64,000 nucleotides of DNA, taken from contig NZ_CP035733.1 in the NCBI RefSeq assembly GCF_009768975.1, forward strand, positions 2,772,001-2,836,000, written 5' to 3'. The notes under the pieces are model-generated. The model ran no database searches, had not been told where the DNA came from, and saw only the letters and a list, made by a program, of their open reading frames with translations. Of this stretch, positions 52,852 to 63,435 are shown piece by piece. Made by a program: the position numbers and the translations under genes. The stretch's first letter is position 1. The number at the start of each line of letters is the position of its first letter. The stretch is from Sphingorhabdus lacus (lineage in GTDB: Bacteria; Pseudomonadota; Alphaproteobacteria; Sphingomonadales; Sphingomonadaceae).

Positions 52852-54201
52852 CTAACCCATTTGCCCTTGCGCCCGCACGAAATGGTCGGCCGCCTTTTTT
52901 GCCAGCAGGAGCATGGCCGCACCGGCAACGGCGCAGCCGAGGTGGAGCGACCAGAAGGTTGTAATCGGTAAGGCTTCAAAACGCGCCGCCAGCACTGTGC
53001 TGAGCAGCCCTGCAAAGAACAGGCCGAGAAAATAGCCCGAAATCGACGTGGCCGAACCCTTCACATTGTCTTTGCTGCCAAGTTCGGCGAGGGCAGCCGG
53101 CAGGATTTGCGCAAGGCCCGCGGCGTTCAGAAACTGGAACGCCACACACCATAGGAGTGTGAGCTTCCCCCCGCCGCCCATCAGCGCCGCTGCCAACAGC
53201 ATGCATGTGCCAGCACATACAAAAAGCGCACCGAAACTTGCCCGGGTCAGCGAGGATACCGGACCGATGTGGCGTTCCAGCGCCCGCCAGGCCGGGACCG
53301 ACGCCACGAGCACGCACAGGCTGAGCGCTGCATCCATTCCGACCAGCCAGCTGACAGGTATCGGCTGACCAAAGAGCATAAGGGCGAAGTCCTTTTTCAC
53401 GCACAGCAGATAGGCATTGAACAATTGAAAGTTGGGAATGGCGAGCAGCCCTACGCCCGCGATCAGCAGGATGTTCGACGGCCATTTGCGAGCGGACAAG
53501 AGGGTGGAAGATGGGGCATATGCCGGCACCTCGACTTTCCGGGCTTTCGCAGGGTCGAAATGGCCAAAGGCGTAAATGGAGAGCGCGACGAGCATGGCGA
53601 AAGCGGAGGTTGCGAACCCCCAATGCCAGCCGGCTTCCTCGCCGATCGTGCCGACCACAAAAGGCCCCGCCAGACCGGCGAGGTTCACTGCGAGAAAGTA
53701 GAGTTGGAACCCTTCGACGCGTCGGGAGTCGGTGTCGTAGAGCGACCCCAACTGGCTGGCGATTGCGCCGCGAAACAGCCCAATGCCGAGCGCTATGCAA
53801 GTTAGCGCCAAAATAAGCGCGGGCTCATATGCCATCGCCAAATGACCCAAGGCCATGATCGATCCACCGACCAATATGGCTCGTGCTGGCCCCAGAACCC
53901 GGTCTGTGATGACGCCACCCACGATCGGAATGATCGAGATGAGCGTCAAAAAGCCACCCGTAATGCTGGAGGCCAGTGCCTGCCCTTTGACCTCAAAGAG
54001 GGTACTGATCGACGCAACGAGCCAGATCTCGTCGGCCGCTCGGGTGACCAGAAGATATTCGGTCAGGTAGAGGATCAGGATTGCCTGCAGCCCGTAATAG
54101 GCGACGCGTTCCCAGAATTTGGTGAGGCAGATTGTTGCGAAACCGTCCGGCTGACCCGTTCGGAGCGATCTAATGCGCCGAAAGGGAAGTGCCGCTGTCA
54201 C
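52852..54201 (-). CDS. POT-family (oligopeptide-like) MFS transporter
   Basis: 449 residues from GTG 54201, which makes a GTGA overlap with the AraC gene; a longer frame from 54246 would overlap AraC by 49 bp. FWERVAYYGLQAILILYLTEYLL is the POT first-helix signature, and ten or more further helices follow. The usual ExxER proton-coupling motif reads KFWER here, lacking the first Glu. Likely takes up small peptides or a related solute, possibly the inducer of the AraC regulator. Confidence 0.85.
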   Translation of the reverse strand: MTAALPFRRIRSLRTGQPDGFATICLTKFWERVAYYGLQAILILYLTEYLLVTRAADEIWLVASISTLFEVKGQALASSITGGFLTLISIIPIVGGVITDRVLGPARAILVGGSIMALGHLAMAYEPALILALTCIALGIGLFRGAIASQLGSLYDTDSRRVEGFQLYFLAVNLAGLAGPFVVGTIGEEAGWHWGFATSAFAMLVALSIYAFGHFDPAKARKVEVPAYAPSSTLLSARKWPSNILLIAGVGLLAIPNFQLFNAYLLCVKKDFALMLFGQPIPVSWLVGMDAALSLCVLVASVPAWRALERHIGPVSSLTRASFGALFVCAGTCMLLAAALMGGGGKLTLLWCVAFQFLNAAGLAQILPAALAELGSKDNVKGSATSISGYFLGLFFAGLLSTVLAARFEALPITTFWSLHLGCAVAGAAMLLLAKKAADHFVRAQGQMG

Positions 54202-55331
54202 GCGCTTCTTCGGCTTCGTGCCTGACCCGGCGTAACCCCGAACCATTGCCGGTAGGAACGCCCGAAACTCGACATATCGGTGAAGCCCAGGAGGCGCGCG
54301 ATATCGGTCAGGCTGATCGCGCTGTTACCGATCAGCTCCGCCGCTTTCATCCTGCGCTCTTCTTCCACAAGCTGGTGGAACTTGATGCCCTGCGCCGCCA
54401 ATGTGCGCACCAATGTCCGCTCGGACACACCTTCGAGGGCCGCAATTTGCTTCAGCCGCGGGACGCGGGCATCAATTTCCATCGCGGCACAGATGGCGGT
54501 GCGGATCCTGCGGACAATGTCGGACCGGCTTCCCTCCCGCTCGGCCACAGCCATGCGTTCTAGGGCGAAGTTCCAAAAAGCCGCGTCGGAACGCAGATTC
54601 TTGATTGACAACCATTCGGCCGCGCCGTGGATCGCATAGTGCCGCGCGCCGCAGGTTATCCCGCAAGGCAGTTTCTGCAACGGGGCGACCAATGCCGAAC
54701 CTTCCATGACCTCGACATCTATATCGATCTCGGCGGCGTCGCCTGTAACGAAAAAGCTGACGAAGCGATATGCGGTGGAGAGGATCGCGATGGCGCAAAA
54801 ATCACGAAGCGAGCCGGGGTTCAGTTCGGAATCCACGACAATCGAAAAGCCATCCTGATGGTGGCGCAAATCAATCTTCAAAAAGGGTGTGCCGAAGGCA
54901 GCTGCCCGGATGAAAAATTGCAATGCGTCCTGCAAGGTCGGGGCATTGTAGAGCGCCGGAACCGTGATAGGCGCGGCGGGTATTTTGAACTCGCCGAACA
55001 AGCGTGCGATGATTCCGGATGCTTCGCCCCGATCCACAATATTGGCGATCAGAATCAAATCGTCCGCCAATGTGACCCGGCTGGGCAATGGCTCGGCGGA
55101 GGGTAGCGCGGTGCCGTCGGTGAGCCAGGCTGGCCAGCCCAGCCATTCCCCAAATTGCGCGGTCGCCGCGGTTGCTACCGTGCGCTGTGCGTCGGGTCCC
55201 AATTGCCGGATCAGGTGAAGAGCGTCCTGCAAGGCAGAGGCGCCGGGCGTCGGGTCGACACATTGCTCCGCCCCGGCGGACTCGACGCAACTTAGCTCAA
55301 TATCGCGATGACGATTTTCATAGCGATCCAT
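54198..55331 (-). CDS. AraC family transcriptional regulator
   Basis: 377 residues from ATG 55331 with AGGAG 5 nt upstream; the longer frame has no ribosome-binding site. The N-terminal about 270 residues resemble the arabinose-binding-like (PF12625) domain of OruR/VqsM-type regulators (DALQFFIRAAAFGTPFLKIDL). The C-terminal DNA-binding domain has ISLTDIARLLGFTDMSSFGRSYRQWFGVTPGQ, the second helix-turn-helix and AraC signature. It overlaps the POT gene and faces the lipoprotein operon, where tandem motif sites lie (55465-55501). Confidence 0.93.
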   Translation of the reverse strand: MDRYENRHRDIELSCVESAGAEQCVDPTPGASALQDALHLIRQLGPDAQRTVATAATAQFGEWLGWPAWLTDGTALPSAEPLPSRVTLADDLILIANIVDRGEASGIIARLFGEFKIPAAPITVPALYNAPTLQDALQFFIRAAAFGTPFLKIDLRHHQDGFSIVVDSELNPGSLRDFCAIAILSTAYRFVSFFVTGDAAEIDIDVEVMEGSALVAPLQKLPCGITCGARHYAIHGAAEWLSIKNLRSDAAFWNFALERMAVAEREGSRSDIVRRIRTAICAAMEIDARVPRLKQIAALEGVSERTLVRTLAAQGIKFHQLVEEERRMKAAELIGNSAISLTDIARLLGFTDMSSFGRSYRQWFGVTPGQARSRRSA

Positions 55332-55464: not shown

Positions 55465-55501
55465 TGGCAGTGAATGTCCAAATGGTGGCAGCATTTGTCC
55501 A
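55465..55501 (+). promoter_or_regulatory. Tandem AraC-type binding sites, lipoprotein operon promoter
   Basis: TGGCAGTGAATGTCCA (55465-55480) and TGGCAGCATTTGTCCA (55486-55501) share TGGCAGnnnnTGTCCA and start 21 bp apart, exactly two helical turns. They lie in the divergent region between the AraC gene and the operon at 55586, 84 bp before its ATG. A matching pair occurs at 58241-58277. Direct repeats of this spacing are typical for AraC dimers. The link to the adjacent regulator is inferred. Confidence 0.7.
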
Positions 55502-55585
55502 TATCCTATTCTGTTACATTCGGGCAGTTTTCGTGCCAGCTTTCAAAAGAGAAGCAAGCCGTTCAACGGGTTGGAGGATATGCGC

Positions 55586-56266
55586 ATGAAAAACATCCCA
55601 ACTATCGGATTTCTGGCGCTTGCATCGGCGCTTGCACTTTCCGCCTGCGATAAGGCAGGCGATGCACCAGACGCCGCCACTGCAGCGGCACAAACAGCAA
55701 AATGGCCAGAAAATCTGGTCCTTGTCGGTGATGGATTTCCCAACCCCGGCGATGCGTGCCGCAAGATCGGTGAAAGCGCCGAGACCGTGAACTATCTGGA
55801 CGACAGCGCCACCCTTGCCGGATGCCTGACCGAAGACGACGCGAAGAAATTGGGCGGCAAGATTGTGGGGGCAGTCGATGGCGTAACGCTGGTATCGGTA
55901 CCTGCCTCTGCGGCTGGCACGCCGGGTGATGGCGATGGCACGGGTGATGCGAAAGTTGCCGGTACCAATTATAATGCAACCGCGCAGATCAAATGCGCGG
56001 GCTATAAGGGTGCCGCCGCAGGCATGTGTGATGCAGGCGTCGTCCGCAACGCGGATGCTGGCTCTTATATTGACGTGACCCTGCCGGACAAAACCACCCG
56101 CACGATCTTCTTCAACAAGGATGGCAGTTTCCTGAGTTTTTCTACCGCCGAAGCCGATGGCACTGCCGCCATGAAGGCAACCGCGTCGCGGGACGGTGAC
56201 ACAACCATCGCGACTTTAGGAAAGGAGAGATACGAAATTCCCGATGTATTTGTTCGGGGTGACTAA
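55586..56266 (+). CDS. Predicted lipoprotein, function unknown
   Basis: 226 residues from ATG 55586 (GGAGG 8 nt upstream). Lipobox LALSAC at about 14-19 with Asp at +2 of the mature Cys, a residue that in E. coli retains lipoproteins at the inner membrane. The mature part has two Cys-containing segments (GDACRKIGESAETVNYLDD, AQIKCAGYKGAAAGMCDAGV) and a C-terminal stretch like a small beta-domain (KTTRTIFFNKDGSFLSF). No family recognised. First gene of the AraC-associated operon. Confidence 0.75.
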   Translation: MKNIPTIGFLALASALALSACDKAGDAPDAATAAAQTAKWPENLVLVGDGFPNPGDACRKIGESAETVNYLDDSATLAGCLTEDDAKKLGGKIVGAVDGVTLVSVPASAAGTPGDGDGTGDAKVAGTNYNATAQIKCAGYKGAAAGMCDAGVVRNADAGSYIDVTLPDKTTRTIFFNKDGSFLSFSTAEADGTAAMKATASRDGDTTIATLGKERYEIPDVFVRGD

Positions 56267-56310
56267 TCCCGGATTTTCCGGAACATCTGCTGCATAAAAG
56301 GGGACATTAT

Positions 56311-56982
56311 ATGGACTTTATGAAACTCCTCAAATCGCTTGAGGAGTTGCTCTACGAAGTCATGGTCATGCTGGTCTTCTATCCGAAGACATTATGGCTG
56401 ACCTTTCGTTACCCGCAACGGATGATGGACTATGCCGATACCGAGTTGGGCGATGTCCAGTCCGAACAATATATCGACACGTTAAGCCCGCCGCTTTTCC
56501 TAATGATGTGTCTGGCCATCAGCCACGCAATCGAGGTCGCAACCTTAGGGAAAAACGGCGGGCTGGAATTACCGTCTTTTCTGAGCAGCACCGAAAATCT
56601 GCTGGCTTTCCGCGTTCTGGTGTTCAGTGTTTTTCCGCTGATGATGGCGTTGCGCCTGTTATATGGTCTGAAGATACCTCTCGATCGCGAAACCTTGCGA
56701 GCCCCCTTTTACGCCCAATGTTTTGTAACCGCACCCTTGGCGATGTGCTTTGGGATTACGCAATCGATGCGGCAGGTGGCCGTTCCGAACAGTCATCTCA
56801 TTGCGAATATTCTCATGCTGCTGGCATTGAGCTGGTATCTTCGGCAGCAAGCCCACTGGTTCCGGACGAAACTGCATGTCGGACCGCTCCGAAGCTGGGC
56901 CATGGCCATTTTGATGTTCTTCATCACATCGGTGCTGCTCGTGGTTACCGCAGCTGTTTTATTTGCACCCTATCTAACGTGA
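56311..56982 (+). CDS. Polytopic membrane protein, possibly Yip1/permease-like
   Basis: 223 residues with about five hydrophobic segments (including 65-80, 98-118, 132-148, 158-175 and 195-220) and GGGGA before ATG. The layout with an N-terminal PKTLWLTFRYPQRMMDYAD loop recalls Yip1-like or DUF-type membrane proteins but I cannot assign it. It lies 44 bp after the lipoprotein and 18 bp before the CPBP gene. Confidence 0.65.
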   Translation: MDFMKLLKSLEELLYEVMVMLVFYPKTLWLTFRYPQRMMDYADTELGDVQSEQYIDTLSPPLFLMMCLAISHAIEVATLGKNGGLELPSFLSSTENLLAFRVLVFSVFPLMMALRLLYGLKIPLDRETLRAPFYAQCFVTAPLAMCFGITQSMRQVAVPNSHLIANILMLLALSWYLRQQAHWFRTKLHVGPLRSWAMAILMFFITSVLLVVTAAVLFAPYLT

Positions 56983-57000
56983 CGGGACTTGGGAGGATCA

Positions 57001-57813
57001 ATGGGCACATCATCCATTAGGCTGCTTATATCGGTTTTTGCCGTTGTCTTGTGGGTCGCGGTGACGATGGGGCTCGCTTTGCTTCAGGTCGCGGAAGGCA
57101 CGTCGCTTGACCAGCTTGTGTCCCAGCAAATTGTGTGGGGGCCGCCCGCCGCTGCCGCCTTATTGCTCGTGATCATGTGGGCGATGAAGTGGAAAGATGT
57201 CGGATTCAACGCCGTTCGGCCGGTATCGTCCTGGCGCTTGATCTGGTTCCCGATGCTGTTCGTCTCCGGCTTTTTTGCCGCAGCGGTTTTTCTGCATGCG
57301 CCTGTACCGAAAGCGATCCTGCTGACGGTCACGATCAACACCATGTTTGTAGGCTTCAGCGAGGAATTGGCCTTTCGCGGTGTTTTATGGGGCGCGGCGC
57401 GCAAGGCCCTTCCCTTTTGGGGCGCGTTCTTCCTCGTCACTTTCCTGTTCGGGATCGTTCATGTTTTGAACGCGCTATTGACCGGTCAATTTGCCGCCGC
57501 AGGCGTTCAGGCGTTCAACGCGATGCTGAGTGGATCCGCCTTTCTTGCGCTTCGCATCCGTACCCATGCTCTCTTACCCGTAATGATTGTGCATTGGTTG
57601 TGGGATTTGTCGGTCTTCATTCTCTTGTCCGGTCGCTCCGGTCCGGCAGAGCCTGCCGCTGCACCGTTGGAACAGTTTTTGGGCGCATTGATCATAGTCG
57701 GCCCGATGGCATTATACGGTTTCTATCTGATCCGGAACGCGCAGGTTCGCGAAGGCTGGCAAGATGATCGCACCACTTCCCCTGACTTCTTAACCCCCCA
57801 AAAAGGAGAATGA
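57001..57813 (+). CDS. CPBP family intramembrane glutamic endopeptidase
   Basis: 270 residues from ATG 57001 with GGAGG 5 nt upstream. About seven helices. Catalytic motifs of the CPBP (Rce1-like) family are EELAFRG (EExxxR), FGIVHVLNALL and MIVHWLWDLS, providing Glu/Glu/Arg and two His. Such proteases process membrane substrates or provide self-immunity to peptide bacteriocins. The stop overlaps by one base the tandem ATGs of the PliG-like gene. Confidence 0.9.
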   Translation: MGTSSIRLLISVFAVVLWVAVTMGLALLQVAEGTSLDQLVSQQIVWGPPAAAALLLVIMWAMKWKDVGFNAVRPVSSWRLIWFPMLFVSGFFAAAVFLHAPVPKAILLTVTINTMFVGFSEELAFRGVLWGAARKALPFWGAFFLVTFLFGIVHVLNALLTGQFAAAGVQAFNAMLSGSAFLALRIRTHALLPVMIVHWLWDLSVFILLSGRSGPAEPAAAPLEQFLGALIIVGPMALYGFYLIRNAQVREGWQDDRTTSPDFLTPQKGE

Positions 57814-57815
57814 TG

Positions 57816-58232
57816 ATGAAGGTAAAACCGTTTCTGGCCATTGCCCTTCTGAGCGGCGCCTATATTGTGCCCGCGACACTTCAAGCGCAGGATGCATCGA
57901 AACCTGTGGCCATACAATTTGCCAAAGGTGCAAGTTCCAAAGTCATAAAAGGCAGCATCCGGGGTGACCAAGGGCGCCTGTATACGATCAATATCAAGGC
58001 GGGCCAGACCCTCAAGGTCAAACTGGTGACGAGCAACAGCTCGTCCTATTTCAACATTACAGCTCCCGGAGCGCAGGAAGCACTGTTCATCGGATCGACC
58101 GAAGGAAACAGCTATTCGGGCGTGGTCCCCTCGTCCGGAAATTACACCATCGATGTCTATCTGATGCGCAATGCCGCCCGGCGGAATGAAACAGCGAACT
58201 ACACCCTGACGGTAAGCGCGACCGGAAAATAG
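57816..58232 (+). CDS. PliG-like inhibitor of g-type lysozyme
   Basis: 138 residues from ATG 57816 (AGGAG 8 nt upstream; ATG 57813 also possible). Signal peptide about 1-24. The mature domain follows the PliG pattern: AIQFAKGASSKVIKGSIRG, YTINIKAGQTLKVKL, PSSGNYTIDV and the conserved RNAARRNETANYTL, close to the RNxARxNxT segment of E. coli PliG. It should protect periplasmic peptidoglycan from g-type lysozymes. Last gene of the AraC-linked operon. Key residues come from recall of the family, not a search. Confidence 0.82.
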   Translation: MKVKPFLAIALLSGAYIVPATLQAQDASKPVAIQFAKGASSKVIKGSIRGDQGRLYTINIKAGQTLKVKLVTSNSSSYFNITAPGAQEALFIGSTEGNSYSGVVPSSGNYTIDVYLMRNAARRNETANYTLTVSATGK

Positions 58233-58240
58233 GGGCATTT

Positions 58241-58277
58241 TGGCAGCAAATGTCCATCGGCTGTCATCATTTGTAAA
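58241..58277 (+). promoter_or_regulatory. Tandem AraC-type binding sites before the duplicated-domain gene
   Basis: TGGCAGCAAATGTCCA (58241-58256) matches the motif found at 55465-55501 in all twelve fixed positions. A degenerate copy TGTCATCATTTGTAAA (58262-58277, 12 of 16 like the 55486 copy) starts 21 bp later. The pair lies 75 bp before the GTG at 58353. It suggests common control with the lipoprotein operon. Confidence 0.65.
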
Positions 58278-58352
58278 TTGTTGTGCACTGGCCGCAGGCG
58301 CATCCTTCCGGCCAGCAAGGTGGATTGCGACTCAGCAAAAAGGGGAGTTTTT

Positions 58353-59153
58353 GTGAAAAAATTTGGAAAAACAACGTTAGCAACATTGGTAGCGACCTCT
58401 TTACTCGCACAGGGCACTGTGGCGGTGGCGGCCCCTCCCGGATCGGTGCGTGATCTGGTCGGTGCCCGCGCCGCCGGTGGCGAAACCACTTTGGAAGAAC
58501 GCGGCTTCACCATGCACCATGGCTTGACCAAGGATGGTGGCAAAGTGACCTATTGGTGGAATCCCAACACCAAGGAATGCGTCAAGGTCGATACCTATGA
58601 CGGCAAGTTCGACGCCATCGACTTGGCGAAAAATTCCGATTGCAACCAAAAGGGCGGCAACGGCGACAAAACCGCCGTCGCCATTGCCGGCGTCGCCGCG
58701 CTTCTTGGCGTTGCGGCTTTGGCGAGCAAGTCGCATGATCGCGGCGACAAATATTCGGACCAAACCAATACAGCCGAATATGAGCGCGGCTATCGTGATG
58801 GGCTCTATAATCAAAGTTACCACAATTACGGCCGGTCAAATGCCTATTCGGACGGCTATTCGCGCGGTACCGAGCAACGTGGGCACGAAACCTCCTACCG
58901 TTCCAACAACCATTATGGCGGCGGCTATTCCGCGCATTCTTATGTTGGTGATCTTCGCGGGCAATCGCGATCCTATGCGGTTTCGCAGCTTATGAGCCGG
59001 GGCTTCGTCGTGCGGGACAACAAGAAAACCGACGAAGGCCGCTACTTCACATTCTGGAACGAAGGCGCCGAACAATGCGTCGTGATGACGTCGAGCAACG
59101 GATATGTGAACTCGATCGAAAATGTTTCCAAGCGGACGTGCCGTGACTGGTAA
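58353..59153 (+). CDS. Secreted protein with two copies of an unknown Cys-containing domain
   Basis: 266 residues from GTG 58353 (AGGGGAG 5 nt upstream; the longer frame has no signal). Signal peptide about 1-27. Domain 1 (about 31-97) and domain 2 (about 200-265) share DLxG, LxxRGF, a Lys followed by (T/F)xW(W)N, a central Cys and a terminal Cys, so the gene arose by internal duplication. Between them lies a hydrophobic Ala/Val segment (about 110-130) and a Tyr/Gly/Ser/His-rich linker with YERGYRDGLYN and YSDGYSRG. The DLxG...LxxRGF start recalls PASTA domains. Function unknown. Followed by a strong terminator. Confidence 0.75.
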   Translation: MKKFGKTTLATLVATSLLAQGTVAVAAPPGSVRDLVGARAAGGETTLEERGFTMHHGLTKDGGKVTYWWNPNTKECVKVDTYDGKFDAIDLAKNSDCNQKGGNGDKTAVAIAGVAALLGVAALASKSHDRGDKYSDQTNTAEYERGYRDGLYNQSYHNYGRSNAYSDGYSRGTEQRGHETSYRSNNHYGGGYSAHSYVGDLRGQSRSYAVSQLMSRGFVVRDNKKTDEGRYFTFWNEGAEQCVVMTSSNGYVNSIENVSKRTCRDW

Positions 59154-59195
59154 TCGGGTACATTTCTTTCAACCAACACCAGGTTGATGCGTGGG

Positions 59196-59235
59196 CGGGG
59201 CTGACGGATTTCCCTCTGTCAGCCCCGTTTTTTTT
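59196..59235 (+). terminator. Strong intrinsic terminator
   Basis: CGGGGCTGAC (59196-59205) pairs perfectly with GTCAGCCCCG (59218-59227) around a 12-nt loop, followed by eight Ts. It ends transcription from the AraC-linked region and separates it from the M13 peptidase gene. Confidence 0.92.
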
Positions 59236-59328
59236 GCCGATGGTTGGGTCGCGCCCGTCTGCACTTTGCAAAACAGGTTGTTCCGGCCCTTTTGGGGTCG
59301 GCACCCTTTTGTTGAAAAGGCGATCGAT

Positions 59329-61383
59329 ATGAAAACATCATTTTTTGCAAGCGTAGCCGCGTTGATGTTCATAGCGCAGCCAAATGCCTTACTGGCGGCC
59401 CCCGCCGAAGCAGGCACGGCTAAACCGCAGCTTGGCGAATGGGGTGTCGAAACGCGCAACATGTCGACGACGGTTCGGCCCGGCGATGATTTCTATCGCT
59501 ATGTCAATGAAGGCTGGCTCAAGACGGCCAAGCCGCCCGCGGGTATCCCTTATATCGATGCCTCGGTCGATGTGTATCTGTCGACGGAAAAGCGGATTGG
59601 CGGTCTCATCGCCGAGACGCGGCAAAAGACAGGGGATCCGGGAAGTCCGGAACAATTAATTGGTGATTTTCACCGATCCCATTCCAATATGGAACGGCGC
59701 AACGCGCTTGGCCTCACCCCTATTGCCAGCACCTTGTCGATTGTCGCGGGCACCACCGACCGCATGGACATGGCAAAAATCATGGCGATGCCCTGGATCG
59801 ACGGTCTGGTTGGTGCCGGGGTTGTGACCGATGCCGATGACCCCAAGCGGCAGATTGCGGCCGTAGGGGTTGGCGGCCTGACGATGCCATCGCGCGACTA
59901 TTATCTGGCCGACGCTGAACCCTATATCGGGCACCGCAAGGCGCTGCTGGACTATATCGCATCGACATTTCGCCGTGCCGGCATTGCGGACGCCGATGCG
60001 CGCGCCGCCAAAGTCATGGCGCTCGAAACCGAAATCGCAAAGCGGCAGTGGACTACCGCACAACGGCGCGATGTTGTGGCCTTGAACAATGTCATGAGCC
60101 CGGCGCAGTTGAAAGCCTATGCGCCGGGCTTCCCCTGGGACGCCTTTTTGGCCGAGATGAAGTTTGACAAGCAGGCGCGTATCAAAGTTCTGACGGATAC
60201 TGCCGTCCAGGACATTGCGAAATTATTCGCCGACACTCCGGTCCCCGACTTGCAGTCTTTCTTGGCATTCAAAACGCTGGATGCCTGGGCGGATTCGCTA
60301 TCCGAGCCATGGGTTCAGGCGCACTTCGATTTTCATGTCAAACGGCTTCAGGATACGCCGGAGCGGCGTCCTGCCGAACTTGAAAGTATCGCCGCCGTCA
60401 ACGCCGCCTTCGGTGAGGAAGTGGGCCGTCTATATGTCGGAAAATATTTCGGCGCATCCGACCGGGCCAAGGTGGACGAGATGGTGGGTTATCTCCGCGA
60501 CACATATCGCGAGCGTATCGAGAAGCTCGAATGGATGGATGAAGCGACCCGCGCGGAAGCGCTCAACAAACTGGCAAAGGTCACACGCTATATCGGCTAT
60601 CCCGAACGGTGGCACGACCGTTCGAATGTGCGTATCGCGGCCGACGATCTTGTGGGCAACCAGAACAGGCTATCGGACTGGGCGCGGGCCGATAGCCTGA
60701 AAAGACTGTCCGAAGAAACGCGGCGGTGGGAATTTCCCTACACCCCGCAAGAGGTCAACGCCGGTTACAGCCAGTCGCAAAACTCGATCACCTTTCCGGC
60801 CGGAATATTGCAGCCGCCCTTCTTCGATCCGAATGCTGATCCTGCGGTCAATTTCGGTTCGATCGCGGCGGTGATTGGCCATGAATTCGGTCATGGCTTT
60901 GACGATCAGGGAAGCCGCTCCGACGGCGACGGGAAGTTGCGCGACTGGTGGACAAAGGCGGCCCGCAGCGAGTTCGACAAGCGCACGGCCGGACTGGTCG
61001 ACCAGTATAACCGATATGAGGCTTTGCCGGGTCTGACAATTAATGGCCGTCAAAATCTGGGCGAAAATATTGGCGATCTCGGTGGTCTGTCCGTGGCCTA
61101 TGCGGCCTATCAGCGTTTTGTGAAGGAAAAGCAGGGCGCAAAGGCCCCCGTCATTGGCGGCTTCACCGGCGACCAGCGCTTCTTTCTGTCCTGGGCGCAA
61201 CTGTGGCGCAATGTCATGACGGAGGGTGAAACCCGGCGGCGCATCCTTTCCGACAACCACAGCCCCGGAGAATTTCGCGTCAATGGCGTCGTCCGAAATG
61301 TCGACGCCTGGTACACAGCGTTCAATATAAAGCCGGGCGACAAACTCTACCTGCCGCCCGAACAGCGCGTCCGGATTTGGTGA
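59329..61383 (+). CDS. M13 family zinc metallopeptidase (neprilysin/PepO-like)
   Basis: 684 residues from ATG 59329 with a signal peptide (about 1-24). The long frame upstream covers the terminator and is excluded. Zinc site VIGHEFGHGFDDQG (HExxH), third ligand in ENIGDLGG, substrate-binding NAGYSQSQNSITFPAGILQPP and terminal RVRIW, the standard M13 ending (usually CxxW; Cys is Arg here). It degrades peptides in the periplasm or outside. Next gene M1, 48 bp downstream. Confidence 0.94.
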   Translation: MKTSFFASVAALMFIAQPNALLAAPAEAGTAKPQLGEWGVETRNMSTTVRPGDDFYRYVNEGWLKTAKPPAGIPYIDASVDVYLSTEKRIGGLIAETRQKTGDPGSPEQLIGDFHRSHSNMERRNALGLTPIASTLSIVAGTTDRMDMAKIMAMPWIDGLVGAGVVTDADDPKRQIAAVGVGGLTMPSRDYYLADAEPYIGHRKALLDYIASTFRRAGIADADARAAKVMALETEIAKRQWTTAQRRDVVALNNVMSPAQLKAYAPGFPWDAFLAEMKFDKQARIKVLTDTAVQDIAKLFADTPVPDLQSFLAFKTLDAWADSLSEPWVQAHFDFHVKRLQDTPERRPAELESIAAVNAAFGEEVGRLYVGKYFGASDRAKVDEMVGYLRDTYRERIEKLEWMDEATRAEALNKLAKVTRYIGYPERWHDRSNVRIAADDLVGNQNRLSDWARADSLKRLSEETRRWEFPYTPQEVNAGYSQSQNSITFPAGILQPPFFDPNADPAVNFGSIAAVIGHEFGHGFDDQGSRSDGDGKLRDWWTKAARSEFDKRTAGLVDQYNRYEALPGLTINGRQNLGENIGDLGGLSVAYAAYQRFVKEKQGAKAPVIGGFTGDQRFFLSWAQLWRNVMTEGETRRRILSDNHSPGEFRVNGVVRNVDAWYTAFNIKPGDKLYLPPEQRVRIW

Positions 61384-61431
61384 GCTGAAAGCAGAAACAT
61401 GCGCATCAAAAATGTCCAATGGAGGTCGGAA

Positions 61432-63435
61432 TTGGAAAAGCATATTCAAATTCGTATCGCCGCCTTTTGCGCACTTGCATTGGCCAGTCTCCTTTCTCCT
61501 TCCATCTCGTGGGCGAACGAATCCCCATGGGTGATTTCCAACGGTCAGGCCGATGCCGGGCTTTACGAGCCACGCCATATCCAGAAAGCCTATGAAAAAG
61601 GGACGCGCAGCCGCGACGGGAAACCGGGGCCGAACTATTGGCAGAATCATGCGACCCATAAGATAAAGGTCACCGTCGCTCCCCCTGATAAGAAGGTTCG
61701 CGGCGAACAGGTAATCATCTACACCAACAACAGCCCCGATCCGCTTCCTGCTCTGGTTTTCCGCATGTACATGGATGCGCACAAGCCGGAAGCGCTCCGT
61801 GAATATCCCACGTCGCGCGATTTCATGACTTCGGGCATTACGGTCGAAGAGTTCAGCGTCGACGGTGCGGTGATGCTATGGGACGATCCCAAGAGTCCCG
61901 TGGCAGGAATGAACTTTCCCGGCAGTACGACGCATACCATCCTGTTGCCCAAACCGATTCCTCCGAAAGGAAGCGTGTCGATCAAGATGCGCTGGAACTA
62001 TGATCTAGTGCGCGACAAGGGCTGGAAAGAAGGCGCGATTGATGACAGCACTTTCTTCCTCGCCTATTTCTTTCCGCGCGTCACCAACTACAGCGACGAC
62101 AGCGGCTGGGACACGCGATTATTCACCATGGGACGGGAGTTTAACAACGACTTTGCCGATTTCGATGTCGAGGTTGTTTCGCCGCGCGACTATGTGGTGT
62201 GGGCAACCGGCGAACTCCAAAACCCGGCCGACGTTCTGCAACCTGAGATCGTCGCCCGCCTGAAGGCCAGCGAGAAAAGCGATCAGGTTGCAACGATCGC
62301 TGAAGCCGCCGACATCAAGGGCGGTAAGGTAACGGCCCGTGCGGCAATGCTGAGCTGGAAATGGCGGGCAAAGCATGTGCCTGATTTTGCACTGGCACTC
62401 AGCAACCACTACCGATGGCAGGCATCGAGTGTAGTAGTGGCGCCTTCGACGGGCCGCCGCGTGGGTGTACAGGCGGCCTATGCCGACAGCGCGACCGACT
62501 TCAAACCGATGGTCGAATATGGCCGACAGGCGTTGCAATTTGCCTCCACCAAATATCCGGGAGTTCCCTATCCGTACCCCAAAACGACAATCATATTGGG
62601 CGGCGCGGATGAGGAATATCCGATGATGGTCAATGACGGATCAAATATCGGCAGCCCGGAAGCCGCAAGCCTGCCTGAAAATGCCTTCACCGGCTTTGTT
62701 GCGACGCATGAAATCCTGCACAGCTGGTTCCCCTTTTACATGGGTATCAACGAGAAACGTTATCCCTTCATGGACGAAGGCTGGACAACCGCGTTCGAAT
62801 ATCTCCGCAACCGCGAGGTGCTTGGCGTCGAAAAAGCGGATGCCCTGTTCAAGGATTTCCGGGTGGTCAAGGTCGGCTGGCCGGAAGCTGCTTCAGGTAA
62901 TGAAATTCCGGTGATTACGCCGCATGATTCGCTGTTTGGCCAAGCGTCGGTATTTGCATTCAACCAATATGGGAAAGCCGCGCTCGGCTATCTGGCGCTC
63001 AAGGACCTGATGGGAGATGAGGCGTTCAAAAAGGGCCTGCACACCTTCATGGAGCGTTGGCACGGCAAGCGTCCCTTGCCTTGGGATATGTTCAACAGCT
63101 TCAATAATGCAGGCGTCGGCGATCATAGCTGGTTCTTCAAAAACTGGTTCTTTGGCTATAACTATATGGACCTTGCCGTCGGTGAGGTGCGTACGGACGG
63201 GGGATCGCATATTGTAAAGGTGCACAATCCAGGAGGCATGGCGATGCCGTTCGACCTCATCCTCAACTATGCCGACGGCACCAGCGAGCGTGTGCATCGC
63301 ACGCCTGCAGCATGGCAATCGGATGGCGGCGCAACCGACGTTACCGTTTCAAACGGCAAGACACTCAGCGCCGTTACACTCGACACCGGGATTTTTGTGG
63401 ACTTCAATCCGAAGGATAACAGCTGGAAACAGTGA
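61432..63435 (+). CDS. M1 family zinc metallopeptidase
   Basis: 667 residues from TTG 61432, with GGAGG 6 nt upstream and leading straight into a signal peptide (about 1-28, ending SISWA); ATG 61399 gives 11 more residues but has a weak ribosome-binding site. Zinc motif ATHEILHSWFPF with the third ligand Glu 18 residues later (MDEGWTTAFEY). The canonical GAMEN substrate motif is not evident; GGADEEYPMMV occupies its place. Aminopeptidase-type activity in the periplasm is likely. Confidence 0.9.
   Translation: MEKHIQIRIAAFCALALASLLSPSISWANESPWVISNGQADAGLYEPRHIQKAYEKGTRSRDGKPGPNYWQNHATHKIKVTVAPPDKKVRGEQVIIYTNNSPDPLPALVFRMYMDAHKPEALREYPTSRDFMTSGITVEEFSVDGAVMLWDDPKSPVAGMNFPGSTTHTILLPKPIPPKGSVSIKMRWNYDLVRDKGWKEGAIDDSTFFLAYFFPRVTNYSDDSGWDTRLFTMGREFNNDFADFDVEVVSPRDYVVWATGELQNPADVLQPEIVARLKASEKSDQVATIAEAADIKGGKVTARAAMLSWKWRAKHVPDFALALSNHYRWQASSVVVAPSTGRRVGVQAAYADSATDFKPMVEYGRQALQFASTKYPGVPYPYPKTTIILGGADEEYPMMVNDGSNIGSPEAASLPENAFTGFVATHEILHSWFPFYMGINEKRYPFMDEGWTTAFEYLRNREVLGVEKADALFKDFRVVKVGWPEAASGNEIPVITPHDSLFGQASVFAFNQYGKAALGYLALKDLMGDEAFKKGLHTFMERWHGKRPLPWDMFNSFNNAGVGDHSWFFKNWFFGYNYMDLAVGEVRTDGGSHIVKVHNPGGMAMPFDLILNYADGTSERVHRTPAAWQSDGGATDVTVSNGKTLSAVTLDTGIFVDFNPKDNSWKQ

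Follow-up and report, generated by a model that had tools for sequence, protein, structure and literature searches.

An AraC-type regulator and paired 37-bp tandem operators predicted to control an envelope gene set in Sphingorhabdus lacus

We analysed a stretch of 64,000 nucleotides of Sphingorhabdus lacus (the window, C1:2772001-2836000 of the single 3,458,643-bp contig that is the whole genome), in which the gene of an AraC/XylS-family regulator lies close to two promoter regions carrying the same tandem sites. The sequence evidence makes it very probable that this regulator is an activator that acts as a dimer on 37-bp tandem operators next to the −35 position and controls both promoters, one belonging to an operon that ends in a PliG-like gene and the other to a gene starting at 58353 (G58353). 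The elements on which the argument turns are the following:

54198 to 55331, minus strand: AraC/XylS-family regulator of 377 aa, with a CdpR/VirS-like N-terminal sensor domain and a C-terminal double helix-turn-helix (HTH)
55465 to 55501, plus strand: operator 1, TGGCAGTGAATGTCCA (55465-55480), a 5-bp spacer (N5) and TGGCAGCATTTGTCCA (55486-55501)
58241 to 58277, plus strand: operator 2, TGGCAGCAAATGTCCA (58241-58256), N5 and TGTCATCATTTGTAAA (58262-58277)

A first-pass annotation of the window had listed four sites, and all of them are found on the plus strand, exact at 55465, 55486 and 58241 and degenerate at 58262. The 21-bp period that it had assigned to both pairs can be read directly from the sequence, the second copies end 84 and 75 bp before the start codons (ATG 55586 and GTG 58353), as it had measured, and the regulator gene is indeed divergent from the first pair; if the alternative start ATG 55580 is used, the distance for operator 1 becomes 78 bp. 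Genome-wide (3,458,643 bp), the 16-mer TGGCAGN4TGTCCA has five exact matches, of which three are these sites. We dropped the other two as incidental, as they are single and overlap long open reading frames. As a single motif with up to three mismatches, the sequence gave 82 matches in the window against a shuffle mean of 57.75, and none of 100 shuffles reached 82. This excess is modest, and the signal is carried by the pair at fixed spacing: TGKCAKN4TGTMMAN5TGKCAKN4TGTMMA, with up to three mismatches, was found twice genome-wide, both times here, and its reversed control was not found at all. A sequence profile of 25 pairs, which includes both window pairs, scored these at E 4.8e-6 and 1.3e-5, and the next match in the genome had an E-value of 0.138. 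The paired arrangement far exceeds chance, and the motif is not scattered at random in the genome, the strong pairs being two in number and both at this locus.

The first-pass annotation had also suggested that pairs with a 21-bp period should track with orthologues of the regulator, and this is what we observed. A contig collection scanned with an AraC alignment returned 25 loci; the scan relied on two short peptide patterns and cannot be taken as exhaustive. In L077 to L088, all 11 loci with upstream DNA have a pair directly ahead of araC, on the strand opposite to it; L087, which begins at a contig end, is not counted among them. The regulator of L077, from the close relative Sphingorhabdus contaminans, shares 79% identity with that of the window, and in the remaining ten pair-positive loci the identity is 33-43%. 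Over L077 to L089, spacing 21 accounts for 22 pairs and the spacings 17-20 and 22-26 for 0-2 each, and 20 of the 22 are at regulon promoters (L080 7473 and L087 10746 lie elsewhere and were not curated). Twelve outgroup loci, from Acinetobacter and others, gave two pairs at spacing 21 and 0-5 at other spacings. A matrix built from the four half-sites of the window only placed spacing 21 best of 15 in 11 of the 12 loci L077 to L088 and in none of the 13 loci L089 to L101, which have other or more distant AraC proteins; with this matrix, ranking across the set counts and single scores do not.

In two genome surveys, an orthologue was accepted at E 1e-40 or better. The regulator was present in six of 298 sampled genomes of the larger family and in three of 45 genomes of the genus. 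A first look at three AraC-positive genomes revealed tandem 21-bp sites, of another letter string, upstream of the lipoprotein operon (G001, G246) or of the 58353 homologue (G288), and a five-pair matrix found pairs beyond its training set, namely at the 58353 homologue of G001 and G246 and at three places in G214. Five loci come from surveyed genomes (L077, L079, L080, L081 and L088 from G300, G001, G214, G246 and G288, respectively) and were counted once per set. The profile was built from 25 of 28 curated pairs, excluding L077 7055 as a near-duplicate of the window, and L083 9773 and L085 1313 because the genes that follow them are unclear. At E 1e-3 or better it produced ten matches in the family, every one of them at the AraC locus; they come from five of the 298 genomes, each of which has the regulator. 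In the genus, matches at this level were confined to the three AraC genomes. The profile scores of the known pairs are not independent evidence because the profile contains them. The near-absence of pairs elsewhere is independent evidence, within the limits of the large scans, whose filters were stricter and which scored only some of the first-look candidates; a lack of matches there does not prove absence.

The converse test started from the target gene. Relatives of G58353 were found in 62 of the 298 family genomes, including all six with the regulator, and 30 loci among these matches were covered. A pair was present in five of the five loci from AraC genomes, and the 25 loci without such an AraC yielded no strong pair and one weak pair (L065), which adjoins an AraC gene of 22-24% identity. 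Apart from the weak pair in L072/L065, no other 21-bp repeat near distant AraC homologues (L071, L072) or in the divergent gap of L073 was convincing.

That the regulator controls both the lipoprotein-PliG operon and the 58353 gene, as first proposed, is supported by loci in which the lipoprotein operon and the 58353 homologue each have a pair at their promoter, namely L077, L078, L079, L081 and L082 and both locus copies of G303 (L106, L107), one of the three AraC-positive genus genomes. In total, seven orthologues of the regulator, from six genomes other than that of the window, are accompanied by such double pairs. The regulon is small, with two promoters carrying the operator in the window genome; in other genomes, pairs also precede M1 peptidase, CPBP protease, TM223 or PliG genes. 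In the rearranged loci L080 and L085, for example, they are located before a PliG-lipoprotein fusion, lipoprotein-58353 units, a CPBP-like gene (assigned by eye in L080) and the gene of the 223-aa membrane protein.

The operator consists of two 16-bp direct repeats with a consensus of approximately TGGCRNNAWWTGTCCA, 37 bp in total. In the 28 curated pairs, positions T1, G2, C4, T11, G12 and A16 are invariant, and each base of the central N5 contributes 0.01-0.23 bits. The conserved blocks start at offsets 0, 10, 21 and 31, so that each repeat contains two of them (TGKC and TGTC, 10 bp apart), which is what a single AraC subunit with its two HTH motifs would be expected to recognise. With direct repeats about 21 bp apart, the element agrees in repeat period with an AraC-type class II tandem operator. 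Immediately downstream, we propose the following promoter elements:

55502 to 55530, plus strand: candidate promoter 1, −35 position TATCCT (55502-55507) abutting operator 1 and −10-like CAGTTT (55525-55530)
55515 to 55520, plus strand: alternative −10 of candidate promoter 1, TACATT
58278 to 58306, plus strand: candidate promoter 2, −35 TTGTTG (58278-58283) abutting operator 2 and −10-like CATCCT (58301-58306)

Downstream of the operators, CA occurs at +24/+25 in 19 of the 28 pairs and T at +29 in 21, and the next commonest dinucleotide over 50 downstream offsets reaches 12 of 28; many of the pair sequences are related, and the CA count is not a probability. The 19 CA-bearing pairs belong to promoters of the lipoprotein operon or of 58353, and to L083. 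CANNNT at +24 would fit a −10 hexamer, with a −35 abutting the operator and a 17-bp spacer, at the two main promoters. The −10-like box at +14 (TACATT/TACAAT) was present only in lipoprotein promoters of the genus. In the alignment with S. contaminans both operators are nearly unchanged, and with flanks that are themselves 91-95% identical this is weak evidence for a footprint.

Several observations weigh against an activator dedicated to these operators. L089, with an AraC of 27% identity, has no pair upstream of araC, and G227, the sixth AraC-positive genome of the family (30% identity), gave no profile match at 1e-3, its locus L034 having a weak 21-bit pair some 900 bp from araC. With the window-only matrix the margin is small in some loci (18.2 versus 16.1 bits in L083), and outgroup loci score up to 18.8 bits at spacing 21. 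The training sets of some motif models contained these very pairs, so that the matches of those models are partly a matter of construction. Three genus genomes lacking the regulator have one match each, at E 0.0016-0.0198 and with about 0.9 expected, and two of the three were examined and have no AraC homologue within 3 kb. As for the promoters, nine of the 28 pairs, which stand ahead of other genes or of rearranged units, lack CA at +24, a TTG-type −35 is found in few of the 28, and a scan with the sigma-70 consensus detected no promoter at either operator. Eight further family genomes have one match each at E 0.001-0.02, which is about the chance level (298 x 0.02 = 6). Four of the ten weak-match loci from the family and genus scans were inspected (L133, L134, L138 and L139). 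The best of the eight family matches (G221, L138) is a pair between the gene of a 26%-identical AraC and that of a META-domain protein, outside the training set, and the operator type may on this ground extend to a wider AraC subfamily.

In the mechanism that we propose, the regulator would bind as a dimer to the two 16-bp direct repeats, which lie on one helix face, and both operators would sit immediately upstream of the presumed −35 of their promoters. Promoter 1 would drive the lipoprotein-TM223-CPBP-PliG operon and promoter 2 the 58353 gene, and the regulator would most likely activate both. Binding, activation rather than repression, and the promoter elements are the parts of the scheme that we infer. 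The same protein on the same operators might instead be a repressor, or loop between operators 2.8 kb apart until a ligand releases it. Both pairs are on one strand and close to araC, and the first, lying between araC and the divergent operon, might act on araC as well. In E. coli, repression by AraC in the absence of arabinose works through looping, as described in the GliR paper (PMC8151288). We nevertheless judge this unlikely, as at the lipoprotein and 58353 promoters the operators are upstream of the candidate −10 and not over it, at the fixed distance that is typical of activation, and looping would not be general, L032 and L086 having one pair only in the stretch examined.

It is also conceivable, and in our view quite improbable, that the regulator controls the divergent lipoprotein promoter only, the 58353 operator being bound by another AraC-family protein that recognises a similar site, or the gene being served by read-through from the operon. 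The second half of operator 2 is degenerate in the window, some genomes have more than one regulator homologue (G303, L080, L085) and the terminator scan finds nothing between the PliG gene and 58353, all of which would suit such a division. Against it, the window genome has no second regulator homologue at E 1e-40, one consensus common to both operators co-occurs with this AraC, and in L086 and L088 araC itself is directly divergent from the 58353 homologue, with a pair. The similarity of the two pairs and their distance of just 2.8 kb could, moreover, reflect functionless chance repeats or fossils of a local duplication of one promoter. We give this hardly any credence: the operator flanks differ between the two sites, pairs were not found where the AraC is absent (weak matches aside), and loci of five genera keep the same motif and spacing with diverged N5 spacers.

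The activator model has close parallels. E. coli AraC carries out class II activation at araI1-I2, where the direct repeats have a period of about 21 bp, face the same side of the helix and adjoin the −35, and the regulator gene is divergent. The system described here is similar in repeat period, helix face and divergent regulator gene and, if the candidate promoters are right, in proximity to the −35. It differs in its sensor, which is CdpR/VirS-like and not a cupin as in AraC, and in its predicted targets, which are envelope proteins and not sugar catabolism; there is no evidence of looping here. Among other characterized regulators, GliR of Pseudomonas aeruginosa (PA3027) provides, through its NCBIfam model, the second-best match of our regulator by E-value. 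In the GliR study (PMC8151288), instances of its motif A include TTGGCGACTTTGTCC and TGGCCGATTTTGTCC, and at PA3026p one motif is upstream of the −35 and one overlaps it; the motif A and B consensus given there differ from the operator here, and the targets are glycerolipid genes. CdpR and VirS (5chh, 8rcw/8rcx) are the two best PDB sequence matches, via their DNA-binding domains. CdpR is about 20% identical to the regulator, its motif as quoted in that same study (RGWYNNNWNCGGCCA; PMC8151288) is unlike the operator here, and it acts on quorum sensing (PMC4847859). For SphR of P. aeruginosa, likewise AraC-type with a tandem-repeat site, PMC5150637 proposes two 15-bp repeats with 7 bp between them, a 22-bp period; the likeness is one of repeat layout, and SphR is set apart by its sphingosine ligand and ceramidase target.

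The C-terminal double HTH domain of the regulator passes the family cut-offs (HTH_18, 59.2 bits for 33.6; HTH_AraC, 32.8 for 26.6), and Arabinose_bd (PF12625), at 27.0 bits, falls just below its gathering cut-off of 27.6. The protein stays far under the thresholds of the QhpR (NF049968, 97.3 versus 250 bits) and GliR (NF050186, 57.8 versus 570 bits) equivalogs. In its AlphaFold model (mean predicted local distance difference test, pLDDT, 82) the best fold match is CdpR 5chh (E 4.8e-11), with the VirS N-terminal fragment 8rcw as a further one (E 1.5e-3), which suggests a kinship of the sensor domains at the level of the model. Next to araC there is a transporter gene:

52852 to 54201, minus strand: POT-family (PTR2) peptide transporter, PTR2 E 2.3e-19

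Its GTG start overlaps the araC stop (GTGA), and the two genes are therefore probably one operon. A POT gene is located downstream of araC in seven of the 12 orthologue loci (L077, L078, L079, L080, L082, L085 and L087).

The presumed targets and the genes that follow them are:

55586 to 56266, plus strand: predicted lipoprotein (lipobox by eye), N-terminal GDGYP...LDDSA domain and C-terminal domain
56311 to 56982, plus strand: TM223, a 223-aa membrane protein (hydrophobic by eye), conserved in the cluster
57001 to 57813, plus strand: CPBP/Rce1-like intramembrane protease, PF02517 E 1.3e-14
57810 to 58232, plus strand: PliG-like protein, predicted inhibitor of g-type lysozyme, from a PDB sequence search
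58353 to 59153, plus strand: G58353, 266 aa (signal peptide by eye), two helix + four-strand repeats
59193 to 59237, plus strand: intrinsic-terminator-like hairpin, 16-pair stem plus T tract, 3' of G58353, from the terminator scan
59329 to 61383, plus strand: M13 zinc metallopeptidase, PF05649/PF01431, with no pair of its own
61399 to 63435, plus strand: M1-family metallopeptidase, PF01433 E 3.3e-11, with no pair of its own here

Four window proteins of the gene set have no Pfam match; the lipoprotein has none in Pfam or NCBIfam, and TM223 has no significant one in Pfam. The protease passes the PF02517 cut-off (54.7 versus 22.4 bits). The product of 57810-58232 is PliG-like by homology (4dzg, E 1.6e-20 over residues 31-136; 4dy3, E 3.4e-9) and likely a lysozyme inhibitor. 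The AlphaFold model of G58353 is of low confidence (pLDDT 62), with repeats at 40-91 and 206-258, and Foldseek returned nothing below E 0.001, the weak match to YpeB being at E 0.017. The window genome encodes a second 58353-like protein, 53% identical (L068 6775-7608, C1:2076807), and the 15 kb of sequence surrounding its gene contain no tandem pair. As for the lipoprotein, its C-terminal domain is fused elsewhere to a PliG-like domain (L080 6136-6930) and to META (L088 6553-7236), with a similar-looking C-terminal/META fusion, by eye, in L086 6961-7644, and appears as a modular envelope-protein family without a Pfam match of its own. The hairpin after G58353 probably marks the end of the transcription unit. 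Because this strong terminator precedes them, the M13 and M1 genes are probably separate units, outside the regulon in the window genome, and read-through from 58353 into them was dropped as an explanation, the 16-pair hairpin and T tract intervening. The M13 gene also adjoins the cluster in L077, L080 and L106, and in G303 (L107) the M1 homologue has a pair 67 bp upstream of its start.

Among the papers listed by a few full-text searches of open-access literature, judged mostly by title, none gives an account of an AraC/PliG envelope regulon. The regulon itself is apparently new, within a well-known kind of system and with a textbook AraC architecture. The analysis yields an exactly defined 37-bp candidate operator and a probable regulator for an envelope gene set of Sphingomonadaceae that is conserved but unnamed, and it places a PliG-like lysozyme inhibitor under proposed AraC control. 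Regulon members elsewhere can also be sought with the operator profile, which led to the AraC/META-domain locus in G221. That the adjacent POT transporter imports a peptide or peptidoglycan cue is a guess, and so is any lysozyme or peptide link, which rests on PliG homology and the POT neighbour. Tentatively, and with more doubt than conviction, one may picture the AraC-POT pair as a dedicated sensor of peptidoglycan or envelope attack in sphingomonads, in which the transporter would import a peptide cue, the VirS-like pocket would bind it and an accessory envelope-defence set would be switched on. Such a set might comprise the PliG-like inhibitor, modular lipoproteins, the CPBP protease, the helix-strand repeat protein and, in some genomes, the M1 peptidase, an assignment that we hold equally loosely. 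If that picture were true, it would be an AraC-based counterpart to the way in which Rcs governs lysozyme inhibitors in E. coli (PMC5651002). Common to both would be a dedicated regulator that raises the expression of lysozyme inhibitors, as proposed here; Rcs, in that account, is a phosphorelay and not an AraC protein, and the PliG-like gene here belongs to a different gene set.

The AraC locus, found in three of 45 genomes, is accessory in the genus. In G303 the whole locus is present twice, as diverged copies that each have their own AraC and both operators, which suggests that the block was duplicated or transferred; the same genome has a third AraC, whose pair precedes a CPBP-type (Rce1-like) protease. 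Lastly, the weak 21-bp pair in G227, whose AraC is the most distant among the AraC-positive genomes, lies before a gene (L034 9527-10240) for a PAS/LOV-like protein with, by eye, a LuxR-like HTH.

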